Source of the DNA: a virus
Length of the DNA: 40,852 nt
IMG/VR virus record: IMGVR_UViG_3300010373_000082
Location: 1-40,852 of that record
Strand: one strand, 5' to 3'
The position numbers were made by a program, and so were the translations under genes. The notes below the pieces were generated by a model. That model saw nothing but the letters and a program-made list of their open reading frames with translations, was not told the DNA's origin and made no database searches. This document shows positions 7,415 through 13,739 of the stretch, one piece after another; positions within the stretch are counted from its first letter, which is position 1, and each line of letters opens with the position of its first letter.

Positions 7415-9844
7415 CTACTTTAATTCTTCTGCAAACTCATCCAACAATGACATATTCGCTATCATGTATGACATTTGCGAAGTGCCAAACTGTTGGCTCG
7501 TCTTATTCTTCGGTATCTCCACTAAGAAACCATTATCAACCAAAGCTTGAATGGTTCTTTTTATTGAATTAGTTGCTCCTAATCTATCTCTCTTAAATGC
7601 TATATCGTTACACAAACGCCTTGCAAAATAAACATGAGGTATAGTTTTAGCATGAAACATATTCTCGTGTCCTTTGATGTAAGACTTAACTTTATTCATA
7701 TCACTTAACACGTATATAGCTACAGCTTTCTTCATTTTATCAAGCTGTCTAATCTCATCAGAATTTTTACCTATAGAACCACTTTCAAATTTTGCAGACA
7801 ACGCTTTAATATCGTGTTCCACTAACTGCTTTCCCCATTCTACATGATCTAACTCTATAAGAGGATTGTAAGGACTGATACCGATAGCCACTAAAGCACT
7901 GATCTTCATCAGCTTAATGTGGGCACGGTTCCAAAGTTGACGAATGACTTCTTTATCTGTGGAATTGATTTTGTAATCAGCTAATACATTAAAAGCATCT
8001 AGCTCTTTTTTAGCTTGAATACTGATATTAACATTAACAACATCGCGATTGCTCATGACAGTTTTAGCATGAGCCATGACATCAGCAATTTTACCTATAA
8101 ATTTTTCATCTGGCTTACTGAGCATGTGATTTTCATTTAAAGCTGGACGCTTGCCATTATATTCAATCAATAAGAAACGTGGTAATAATCCTTCAGCTAT
8201 CATTTCTTCAGTCAATGCTGAATAAAATGTTTCTGGTGTACTTTCACCTAAAATAGAAAATGCTGGTGCTGATATGAGATTAGTATTCTTTTCTGCATCA
8301 GCATAAATAGACGGGCGAGCAACTTGCCCATGACCACTTTTATTATAGAGGTCTAATAACATACGCTTAAGCGACTTTTCAGCACCATTCGCGCGATGGT
8401 CTGACATAGCTTGCAAGCGCAAACCAAACTCGCCAAGAATTGACACAAAGCTTTGAGATTTAGTGGACAGATATTTTATAAGGGCTTGCCCTGAAGCTAT
8501 CTCAGACGGCCCCATAAATTCAGGTGCTACAGGAACACGCATTGATACAGCATTGACAATCTTATCAATACCACTAGCTAAAGCTTCTTTACCTGTACCT
8601 GTATTAGCTAAAAGCAATACGTATTGATTTAAACCTGTACCAGATACATTATAAGCACGGCCACAAACTCCAGCCATGAAACCTATAGCGCCAGCTAAGG
8701 CTATCTCAGGAACAGGGCGAGGCGCAGACTGATAAATAAACTGCGCGATTTCACCTAATAGACCGGGAGGTGGTAGAATGGTGGAAGTGGTAGGACTCGA
8801 ACCTACATCTGTACCGTTATGAGCGGCGGGAACTAACCGTTGTTCTACACTTCCATTATTGGTAGCGGCGCTTGGATTTGAACCAAGACTGTCAACGTCA
8901 AAGGTTGATGGGCTACCATTACCCGACGCCGCTAATTTTTGTTGTGTTAGCTTTTCTTCTAGCGCTATCTTGAAGCCTTCAGTATCTACAAGAGGAAGCA
9001 TTCTGTCAAATGATCTTTGGATCATTTGATTGACATAATCAGACCTTTTAGCTTTATCTCTAAGTCCAAGATTGCTAGCTCTAAATATTCTGGCGATTTG
9101 ATTTCTGTTTTGAGTATAGAAAGCAATAATGTCGATAATTGCGAAGTCTGCTTCGGATTGAGAACTATACAATGATTGCCAATCGCCGCTGTACAGACTG
9201 TTAAATTTGTCTCCGTTACTAGCACTCGAAGCTTGTTTGATGATTTCAGCATCGTTTTGCGTCTCCGGTTCATTACCTGTATAATTGCTAATTTTTGGCG
9301 GTGCAGCCATTTGTTCATACAATGACTGCAATAACTCTTGCCTATTAGCAATAGGCTTATTGAGATAAACATTTCCGGTCATTGTGAAATAACGACCGCT
9401 TGAATAAATCTCTACAAAAGCACGTCTGCGACCTTGAGGTACAGAGCCTTTAATAATGATGTGCAATCCTTTGCCTGAAGGTGAACACTCACTATAACTG
9501 TCAAACTCTTTAAATATATTTAGCTGTCGCTCGTAGTCTTTAGCTGCATTGGGATTAGGTTCACCGTTTGGTAAAACAGATGTATCGTCCAAATCAACAC
9601 CAGCGTAGCCAGTGTTGGTAAATATGAAACCTAATCCATCATAGCTACCGAGTTGCAAGCAATTAAAAGCGTCATCAAACTTAACCCAATTAGACGGATT
9701 AGTTACGTCACACTTATAACCATTAGGCTGATACGGAACTTTAGTAGGCTTTGATTGTTTTCCGTTAGGCCATTCGTATTTCCAAAGACACCAATTAGGT
9801 AATAGTCTCAATTCTTCAGGAATAGCGTAAAGCTTAGATAGCAT
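7415..9844 (-). CDS. PrimPol-helicase (AEP primase-polymerase plus DUF3987-like ATPase)
   Basis: An 809-residue replication protein. Residues 1-180 look like the archaeo-eukaryotic primase-polymerase domain of the NrS-1 type: DLDD at 84-87 supplies metal-binding acids and GKGLHIII (124-131) the conserved histidine. Residues 220-290 resemble the helical HBD segment that follows in that family. From about 357 a DUF3987/helicase-like ATPase follows, with Walker A ANTGTGKEAL near 415-422. A C-terminal winged-helix-like tail is possible. The linker, residues 304-356, is rich in Ser, Gly, Asn and Thr and is encoded by two sense-strand tRNA genes (8779-8854 and 8860-8933). Full length, no stop in frame. 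Expected job: priming and unwinding at the phage fork. ATG start with weak ribosome binding sequence. Confidence 0.8.
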   Translation of the reverse strand: MLSKLYAIPEELRLLPNWCLWKYEWPNGKQSKPTKVPYQPNGYKCDVTNPSNWVKFDDAFNCLQLGSYDGLGFIFTNTGYAGVDLDDTSVLPNGEPNPNAAKDYERQLNIFKEFDSYSECSPSGKGLHIIIKGSVPQGRRRAFVEIYSSGRYFTMTGNVYLNKPIANRQELLQSLYEQMAAPPKISNYTGNEPETQNDAEIIKQASSASNGDKFNSLYSGDWQSLYSSQSEADFAIIDIIAFYTQNRNQIARIFRASNLGLRDKAKRSDYVNQMIQRSFDRMLPLVDTEGFKIALEEKLTQQKLAASGNGSPSTFDVDSLGSNPSAATNNGSVEQRLVPAAHNGTDVGSSPTTSTILPPPGLLGEIAQFIYQSAPRPVPEIALAGAIGFMAGVCGRAYNVSGTGLNQYVLLLANTGTGKEALASGIDKIVNAVSMRVPVAPEFMGPSEIASGQALIKYLSTKSQSFVSILGEFGLRLQAMSDHRANGAEKSLKRMLLDLYNKSGHGQVARPSIYADAEKNTNLISAPAFSILGESTPETFYSALTEEMIAEGLLPRFLLIEYNGKRPALNENHMLSKPDEKFIGKIADVMAHAKTVMSNRDVVNVNISIQAKKELDAFNVLADYKINSTDKEVIRQLWNRAHIKLMKISALVAIGISPYNPLIELDHVEWGKQLVEHDIKALSAKFESGSIGKNSDEIRQLDKMKKAVAIYVLSDMNKVKSYIKGHENMFHAKTIPHVYFARRLCNDIAFKRDRLGATNSIKRTIQALVDNGFLVEIPKNKTSQQFGTSQMSYMIANMSLLDEFAEELK
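8779..8854 (-). tRNA. tRNA-Met (anticodon CAU), inside the PrimPol-helicase frame
   Basis: Full cloverleaf on the minus strand: acceptor GGAAGTG/CACTTCC, D stem GAAC/GTTC with GGTTA loop, anticodon loop CTCATAA, T stem GTAGG/CCTAC with loop TTCGAGT, discriminator A and an encoded CCA (8781-8779). The anticodon stem has a C-A mismatch at 27-43 and a G-U next to it, perhaps a compromise with the protein frame. Elongator Met is most likely; an Ile tRNA with modified CAU cannot be excluded. It lies 5 bases after tRNA-Gln, both transcribed with the host frame. Confidence 0.88.
8860..8933 (-). tRNA. tRNA-Gln (anticodon UUG), inside the PrimPol-helicase frame
   Basis: Full cloverleaf on the minus strand: acceptor AGCGGCG/CGCCGCT, D stem GGGT/GCCC around AATGGTA, anticodon stem TCAAC/GTTGA with loop CTTTGAC (UUG), T stem CTTGG/CCAAG with loop TTCAAAT, discriminator A and encoded CCA (8862-8860). 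All stems pair fully apart from one G-U in the D stem. The A1-U72 pair fits glutamine tRNAs, which often have a weak first pair. It overlaps codons about 304-329 of the replication gene. Confidence 0.9.
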
Positions 9845-12065: not shown

Positions 12066-13739
12066 ATGAACCAGAATGATTTAAAACCGGCCGGAGACTT
12101 TGCTAAGGCTTATGGTGTTAAAAGCATCGTATATGGTGCTGCAGGATCAGGTAAATGCTTAGCTCCGGGTACACCTATTTTAATGTTCGATGGTTCAATT
12201 AAAATTGTCGAATTGATAAAAGAAAATGATTTATTGATGGGACCAGATAGCTTGCCTAGGCGAGTTGTAGGTTTGGCTCATGGCTTTGAAGAAATGTTTG
12301 ATATCATACCTAATAAAGGTGAAACTTATAGAGTTAATCGTTCTCATATTTTATCATTAAGAATGAGCACTAGAAATTATGATGTAGAAGTCACAATAGA
12401 TCAATATTTTAATGAAACTGAAAACTTTAGAAAAAATGCTAAAGGATGGAGAACAGGTGTAGAGTTTTCTACAAAAAATATAACTGTCAATCCATATTTG
12501 TTAGGCATTTGGTTAGGTGATGGTTCTAGCGATGAACTTGCTTTTCATACTAAAGATGAAGAAATTGTAAATTTTTTAAATGACCAATGTTGGTATCATG
12601 GTTTAGTTTTACGTACATATGTCAATGGCGATAAGTGTCCTAGATATAGGTTGTCTAGTACAAAATCTCAAAAAATTAATAATAAACTAAACGCTCATTT
12701 TGATAGTTACTCATTATTTAATAATAAACATATACCGTTTGTTTATAAGACTAACTCTAAGGAAATCAGACTTCAATTGCTCGCTGGTTTAATCGACAGT
12801 GATGGCTACTTAGGAACTAATTGTTTTGAAATTTCTACTAAGCTTGAAATATTAGCTGATGATATTTGCTATCTAGCTAGATCGTTAGGATTAGCTGCTT
12901 ATAAGAAAAAAACTAACAAAGAATGTGTAAATAATGGTGTATGGGGAGTTTATTGGAAAGTTTCAATTTCTGGAAATACAGATATAATTCCAACTAAGCT
13001 TAAAAGAAAACAAGCGTCTAAAAGAAAACAAATTAAAGACGCTTTAGTTACAGGTATTACTGTAAAGTCGGCAGGTTTTGGAGAATACTACGGATTTGAG
13101 TTAGAAGGCTCAAATAAATTATTCATGTTAGGAGATTTTACAGTTACTCACAATACACCACTAGCTAATACTTGTCCAAGACCTTTGATGTTAGCTTGTG
13201 AGCCGGGTATGCTATCTATGCGCGGCAGTACCATTCCGACATATCAAGCGTTTACAGAAAAAGCGATTGACGATTTTTTCCTCTGGTTCTTCGGATCAGC
13301 CGAAGTTAAAAATTTTGACACGTTGATTGTAGATAGCATTAGTCAAATGCCAGACATATATCTTCAAGCTGCTAAAGTAAACATTAAGCATGGTCTACAG
13401 CAGTATGGATATATGGCTGAAAGAACCATGACACATTTGCGCCGATTGTATTTCACTCAGCAGAAACACACTTATTTGATAGCTAAAGAAGAATTAGCTA
13501 ATATTAATGGCGTATTTACGCGTCGTCCGTACTTTCCCGGACAGCAGCTTAATGCTGATGTACCATATCTTTATGACGCTATCTTGCATCTAGCTAAAGT
13601 GCCTATTCCGGGAGTTGGAGAGGCTTTGGCTTTTAGGTGTAAAGGTGACATGAGCGTTATAGCCAGAGAAAGGACAGGAAAAGCAGCAGAGTTTGAACCG
13701 CCAAATTTCGCAGATTTGATTAAAAAAGTAATGGCTTAG
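12066..13739 (+). CDS. AAA_24 / Sak4-like RecA-fold ATPase with intein
   Basis: 557 codons, of which 333 are an intein. The spliced protein would be 224 residues, normal for phage AAA_24/Sak4 proteins, which act with SSB in single-strand annealing and recombination. The two halves join to give the Walker A GAAGSGKT; the first half ends with Lys30 and the second begins with Thr364. Walker B is DTLIVDSISQ in the C-terminal half. Without splicing the P-loop is broken, so the ATPase should be inactive until the intein leaves. Neighbours are a DUF7173-like gene before and an SSB-like gene after, which fits a recombination cassette. ATG with weak ribosome binding sequence, probably coupled to the gene before. 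Confidence 0.8.
   Translation: MNQNDLKPAGDFAKAYGVKSIVYGAAGSGKCLAPGTPILMFDGSIKIVELIKENDLLMGPDSLPRRVVGLAHGFEEMFDIIPNKGETYRVNRSHILSLRMSTRNYDVEVTIDQYFNETENFRKNAKGWRTGVEFSTKNITVNPYLLGIWLGDGSSDELAFHTKDEEIVNFLNDQCWYHGLVLRTYVNGDKCPRYRLSSTKSQKINNKLNAHFDSYSLFNNKHIPFVYKTNSKEIRLQLLAGLIDSDGYLGTNCFEISTKLEILADDICYLARSLGLAAYKKKTNKECVNNGVWGVYWKVSISGNTDIIPTKLKRKQASKRKQIKDALVTGITVKSAGFGEYYGFELEGSNKLFMLGDFTVTHNTPLANTCPRPLMLACEPGMLSMRGSTIPTYQAFTEKAIDDFFLWFFGSAEVKNFDTLIVDSISQMPDIYLQAAKVNIKHGLQQYGYMAERTMTHLRRLYFTQQKHTYLIAKEELANINGVFTRRPYFPGQQLNADVPYLYDAILHLAKVPIPGVGEALAFRCKGDMSVIARERTGKAAEFEPPNFADLIKKVMA
12156..13154 (+). mobile_element. LAGLIDADG intein in the ATPase P-loop
   Basis: Codons 31-363. It starts with Cys (CLAPGTPILMFDGS, block A), has a block-B-like NRSHILSL, and ends FMLGDFTVTHN before Thr, giving the splicing residues Cys1, His-Asn at the end and Thr at +1. 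Two dodecapeptide motifs are present, LLGIWLGDGS (145-154) and LLAGLIDSDGY (about 238-248), with both catalytic acids. So the homing endonuclease looks intact. Codon use is more AT-rich than the flanking ATPase halves. Insertion exactly inside GSGK/T is a classical intein site because the P-loop is highly conserved. Confidence 0.92.

Follow-up and report, generated by a model that had tools for sequence, protein, structure and literature searches.

The locus examined here raises the question of how one stretch of viral DNA can be two tRNA genes and, at the same time, part of a protein. The DNA is IMG/VR virus record IMGVR_UViG_3300010373_000082, analysed over its full 40,852 nucleotides and referred to below as the window. 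The original prediction had placed two tRNA genes, both with encoded CCA, in frame on the sense strand of a long open reading frame, exactly where the PrimPol and helix-bundle (HBD) part of a primase-helicase gives way to the ATPase part. We examined the two genes, the protein that runs through them, and their counterparts in uncultured viruses and cultured phages.

Two tRNA genes within a primase-helicase frame

ARAGORN called tRNA-Gln(TTG) and tRNA-Met(CAT) and no further tRNA gene in the window, and RF00005 agreed, scoring them at 63.9 and 56.9 bits respectively. Both values exceed its gathering score of 29, so the tRNA models do not score as non-functional. The two genes occupy codons 304-356 on the sense strand of an 809-codon frame that is uninterrupted by stops, CCA is encoded in both as predicted, and shuffled linkers gave tRNAs in 0 of 1000 cases. 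The window's own D-stem, GAAC/GTTC, compared with GCTC/GAGC, represents a double compensatory change. The C-A mismatch of the CAU tRNA had been tentatively attributed to coding pressure, an explanation that is not needed because the pair concerned, 27-43, is also unpaired in 2 of 12 homologues. When several CAU tRNAs were folded in isolation, the minimum-energy fold departed from the cloverleaf by small energies.

Features of the primase-helicase locus in the window
Feature	Positions	Strand	Evidence
PrimPol-helicase ORF, 809 aa, stop included	7415..9844	(-)	ORF call, Pfam, phrog_3022, homologues
NrS-1-like PrimPol and helix-bundle domain, residues about 1-290	8975..9844	(-)	PF22763, Foldseek, PDB profile
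Predicted disordered linker, residues 306-355	8780..8929	(-)	AlphaFold2 pLDDT
tRNA-Gln(UUG), 74 nt with CCA, frame starts at its second base	8860..8933	(-)	ARAGORN, RF00005, covariation
5-nt frame-keeping spacer, class 2 mod 3 for Gln-Met order	8855..8859	(-)	spacer comparison
CAU-anticodon tRNA (called Met; probably tRNA-Ile2), 76 nt with CCA, frame starts at first base	8779..8854	(-)	ARAGORN, RF00005, covariation, Ile2 likeness
AAA+/DUF3987-like helicase part, residues 359-809	7415..8770	(-)	sub-threshold Pfam, weak Foldseek, motifs

The protein matches phrog_3022 ('DNA primase') as one gene across residues 6-788 with 741 bits. Its N-terminal part contains the NrS-1 HBD of Pfam (PF22763, residues 229-280, 33.8 bits with a cut-off of 27.9), resembles NrS-1 N300 in Foldseek (E=2e-14) and has PDB profile matches spanning residues 2-250. 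For the C-terminal part the Pfam match to DUF3987 (PF13148, residues 519-676) was sub-threshold and the Foldseek similarity to MCM/AAA+ ATPases was weak (E about 4e-6), and homologue alignments revealed conserved PPGL and Walker A-like GTGK motifs. An AlphaFold2 model built on an alignment of 15 relatives gave pLDDT below 50 for the linker and was confident on either side of it; this low-pLDDT stretch is very nearly coextensive with the tRNA pair, in agreement with the predicted position between the two domains. The linker translation is rich in Ser, Gly, Asn and Thr, and residues 304-356 include STFDVDSLGSNPSAATNNGSVEQR. Elsewhere in the window, a 557-aa ORF (12066-13739, plus strand) joins a helicase-like part to a C-terminal Sak4-like ssDNA-annealing part, and downstream of the primase in a related contig (L052, 6350-7030) lies a distinct ORF, part of which resembles the C-terminal end of the primase (query 731-795).

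The nearest known architecture is that of the NrS-1-type primase-polymerases (PHROG 3022), which likewise carry a PrimPol and HBD N-terminus and a ring-helicase-type C-terminus on one chain, and in NrS-1 polymerase, too, a flexible linker joins the N-terminal part to the C-terminal part (PMC7102993). The window protein differs in that its C-terminus is weakly DUF3987/MCM-like AAA+, whereas NrS-1 has an SF3 domain, and in that its linker is encoded by tRNA genes. The primase-helicases of Septimatrevirus, Kilunavirus and Lokivirus (Kakheti25, KL1, Halfdan, XAJ2) are homologous over their full length (44-48% identity); their linker, at the corresponding site, is variable and contains no tRNA in the records examined.

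Recurrence and double constraint in relatives

A search for related loci with the window protein alone gave no match, and an alignment query was required. Contigs were collected from IMG/VR by profile searches, which did not select for tRNAs, and by pattern searches for a T-arm near PPGL. We found tRNA genes in the primase-helicase linker of at least 20 distinct IMG/VR contigs including the window, with 31 tRNAs in all; five of these contigs (L013, L021, L219, L220 and L225) came only from the tRNA-selected patterns, and the other 15, among them the window, are independent of that selection. All 31 tRNAs lie inside the ORF, in sense orientation and in frame, and a systematic scan detected neither antisense tRNAs nor any that lay close to the primase ORF yet beyond its limits. 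The linkers carry Met/Ile2 together with Gln in either order, or either of these alone, the exceptions being L067, with a single Leu(UAA), and L147, with a Tyr-like tRNA. In 20 of 20 contigs the ORF is open through the tRNAs, with no stop or frameshift between the domains. A linker alignment that the original prediction had suggested as a check showed the tRNAs and the frame to be kept across uncultured relatives, with tRNA-free linkers in others. Full-length homologues are 44-63% identical to the window protein. The window is 40.9 kb long and has no end repeat; as its relatives extend to 57-60 kb, it may not be complete, and several of the contigs are partial. Two contigs deserve separate mention. 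The Tyr(GUA) call in L147 (3832-3909, 48.7 bits) has a class I shape, two anticodon-stem mismatches and an incomplete CCA, and is perhaps a decaying or changed tRNA. In L037 (4430-4578) tRNA-Gln and the CAU tRNA share one base, so that one transcript could not give both tRNAs their fully encoded ends.

For covariation analysis we used 12 CAU and 12 Gln tRNAs from the linkers, in which 99.2% of stem cells form standard pairs. Pairs changed on both sides numbered 17 of 21 for Met/CAU and 17 of 20 for Gln; the observed covariation values were reached in 0 of 500 shuffles, and sliding the partners abolished the signal. The UUG and CAU anticodons, the signature bases of the D- and T-loops and the CCA are kept, and the stems vary freely. 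Some of this covariation may have arisen because different free tRNAs were acquired repeatedly, and not because the linker tRNAs evolved where they are; whichever origin it has, the linker tRNAs are, as far as their sequences tell, structurally intact.

The reading frame is kept as well. Every tRNA frame in use is stop-free and most of the 31 tRNAs have just one open frame, the product of the odds for this choice being 10^-12.4 when relatedness is ignored. Spacers between paired tRNAs range from -1 to 25 nt and always keep the frame: those in Met-Gln order (1, 4, 4, 4, 7, 7 and 25 nt) are all 1 mod 3 (7/7), and those in Gln-Met order (-1, 2, 5 and 5 nt) are all 2 mod 3 (4/4). Linker tRNAs of odd length (75, 77 and 77 nt) likewise fit the frame, and the 77-nt Gln tRNA of L225 exceeds the usual 74 nt by exactly three. 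These comparisons indicate that the clade maintains the frame as well as the tRNA structures.

The wider family was surveyed in cultured phages, where 482 records hold a related gene, none with more than 60% identity. The cultured phage collection yielded no member of the tRNA-bearing clade, and the homologues found in bacterial genomes lie only outside the clade. In alignments, cultured homologues show at the corresponding place a linker that varies but is of comparable length, and linker tRNAs were absent from L002-L010, phiAxp-1, shaaii_LB5 and R3; a tblastn match of the linker peptide to phiAxp-1 was dismissed as a tRNA candidate, there being no tRNA at that site. The cultured homologues inspected are single ORFs except in the records of Pseudomonas phage PSV3 (L003, L004 and L010), where the primase gene is frameshifted into 3-4 ORFs, likely through sequencing errors. 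Two other candidates were also rejected. Three long frames spanning other tRNAs of the same contigs proved to be upstream frame extensions rather than genes holding tRNAs, and a promoter-like site (9009-8981, 10/12) upstream of the tRNAs overlaps the conserved FDRMLPxVD codons; the region as a whole has 14 promoter-like sites compared with 11.4 in shuffles, no excess.

Gain, loss and proposed decoding role of the linker tRNAs

Trees were built without the linker, by FastTree (25 members, 16 of them tRNA-bearing) and by IQ-TREE. All tRNA-bearing members except L067 fall in one clade, with support of 0.996 in FastTree; in IQ-TREE the tRNA clade, which there includes the tRNA-free L176, has 97% support. 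Because L067, with its Leu(UAA), stands outside the clade, its linker tRNA was likely gained separately, as judged from the tree. Parsimony requires about eight changes in tRNA presence, compared with a mean of 14.4 for shuffled labels. Nine clade members are tRNA-free (L041, L122, L026, L040, L149, L119, L025, L035 and L045), and those whose contigs were scanned have no Gln or CAU tRNA elsewhere. The linker tRNAs are therefore dispensable.

Salmonella phage Melville (NC_042044, 63591-63737) has an intergenic tRNA-Met/tRNA-Gln pair, with a tblastn match that runs in one frame through both genes. A pair of this kind is a possible model of the donor, and by analogy we suggest that a permissive linker might gain such a tandem pair, in frame, by a single step.

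Outside the linkers, the tRNA genes of these contigs are intergenic and belong chiefly to the species Leu(UAA), Thr(UGU), Pro(UGG) and Arg(UCU); L234 has one further tRNA that ARAGORN left without assignment. Gln(UUG) fits the A-ending-codon pattern of these tRNAs, and in the window Gln is written as CAA in 68% of cases and Ile as ATA in 23%. The CAU tRNA had been predicted as tRNA-Met; the anticodon stands, but the body of the tRNA is closer to Ile2. We compared the CAU tRNAs with two Ile2 references and with elongator Met references, of which the E. coli ones were verified and the B. subtilis ones are sequences that we take to be its Ile2 and Met tRNAs. With the acceptor stem excluded, the better Ile2 reference exceeded the better Met reference in 12 of 12 cases, narrowly in L039 and L108. 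In addition, E. coli Ile2 has an open frame and E. coli elongator Met has none. The CAU tRNA is therefore probably tRNA-Ile2, reading AUA, since the other phage tRNAs mostly match A-ending codons. Phage-encoded codon-supply tRNAs are similar in being mainly A-ending-codon species with encoded CCA, and Melville offers a tandem Met/Gln example; they differ in being intergenic, whereas the tRNAs of the window lie wholly within an ORF, in sense and in frame.

Proposed dual use of the linker and its alternatives

We think it fairly likely, from the sequence comparisons, that the linker segment has a dual use, providing tRNAs from some transcripts and being translated as linker from the rest. Host RNase P and 3' nucleases would excise mature tRNAs from a fraction of the primase transcripts, destroying those copies as mRNA, and on uncut copies ribosomes would read straight through the tRNA sequence to make a flexible linker. 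During infection the excised tRNAs would help to decode codons that end in A (CAA, AUA). The linker may have become a landing site for tRNA genes because almost any in-frame insert would be tolerated and because these tRNA species have a stop-free frame. It is reasonable to hold, as the original prediction did, that each transcript would yield either protein or tRNAs. Against dual use, excision would cost mRNA of a replication gene, which a free tRNA would spare, and several clade members lack linker tRNAs. A stronger form of the proposal, in which whole tRNA genes coding for the linker define a new kind of gene whose transcript is either mRNA or tRNA precursor, and in which excision doubles as a built-in brake for the replication protein, seems to us rather unlikely.

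Other readings put the weight elsewhere. If tRNA processing served to tune or shut off the primase-helicase, or to separate its halves, the tRNA supply would be a by-product; the original prediction had similarly suggested that the tRNAs split primase from helicase or set their ratio. Excision would indeed necessarily inactivate the mRNA, and a diverged clade has kept the tRNAs embedded in a replication gene, but the species, number and order of the tRNAs vary and several members have none. A split in particular is improbable, since we found no conserved internal start with a Shine-Dalgarno sequence after the tRNAs of tRNA-bearing homologues from which a separate helicase could be made, a cut would leave a 5' message without a stop codon, and the homologues, tRNA-free ones included, are fused single polypeptides. 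A regulatory switch is on these grounds quite unlikely. We give no better a chance to the view that the tRNAs are neutral passengers, harmless in-frame insertions that persist in a permissive linker and are perhaps made but bring little benefit. Their patchy presence, with about eight changes on the tree, both tRNA orders and the natural variability of the linker are what passengers would lead one to expect; the near-perfect stem pairing with its many compensatory changes is not, nor is the finding that members of the main clade nearly always have the same two species, at most one of each, with none elsewhere in the contigs checked.

That the linkers fold into tRNA-shaped structures with some other job, such as ribosome pausing, RNA stability or recognition, without being functional tRNAs, is very unlikely. 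The strong G+C-rich hairpins found in place of tRNAs in the linkers of L119 and L045, and the odd, mismatched Tyr-like tRNA of L147, would suit it. However, most tRNA-free linkers have unexceptional folding z-scores, so that a general RNA structure other than tRNA is for the most part not kept there; anticodons, loop signature bases and CCA stay constant while the stems change, and L067, a relative in the tree, has a different yet complete tRNA-Leu(UAA). The chance that assembly error or frameshift has fused two genes across a tRNA spacer is next to nil. Frameshift-broken primases do occur in the cultured relative PSV3, but tRNA-free homologous genes are in one piece and the one-frame architecture is repeated in 20 distinct contigs, a recurrence that rules out both the assembly error considered in the original prediction and a chance match.

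Overlapping and nested genes, and RNAs that act as mRNA and as a structured RNA alike, are familiar cases of one sequence under two constraints. To our knowledge, there is no case of complete, functional-looking tRNA genes as an in-frame protein segment. We found no precedent for sense tRNAs within an ORF in the open-licence literature searched, which is weak evidence of novelty. A role of phage tRNAs beyond codon supply is illustrated by tRNA-dependent lysogeny, with integration at host tRNA genes (PMC10865867), although no tRNA lies within an ORF in that system.

Should the linker tRNAs indeed be processed and the protein produced, as the dual-use reading holds, the locus would be a natural example of one sequence that is both tRNA gene and in-frame protein segment and has long been under both constraints. 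It would mean that tRNA genes can sit in replication ORFs, where gene callers may miss or mis-split them, and it would offer a system for studying the competition of RNase P and ribosomes for one RNA. It also suggests that flexible linkers can be landing sites for non-coding RNA genes.
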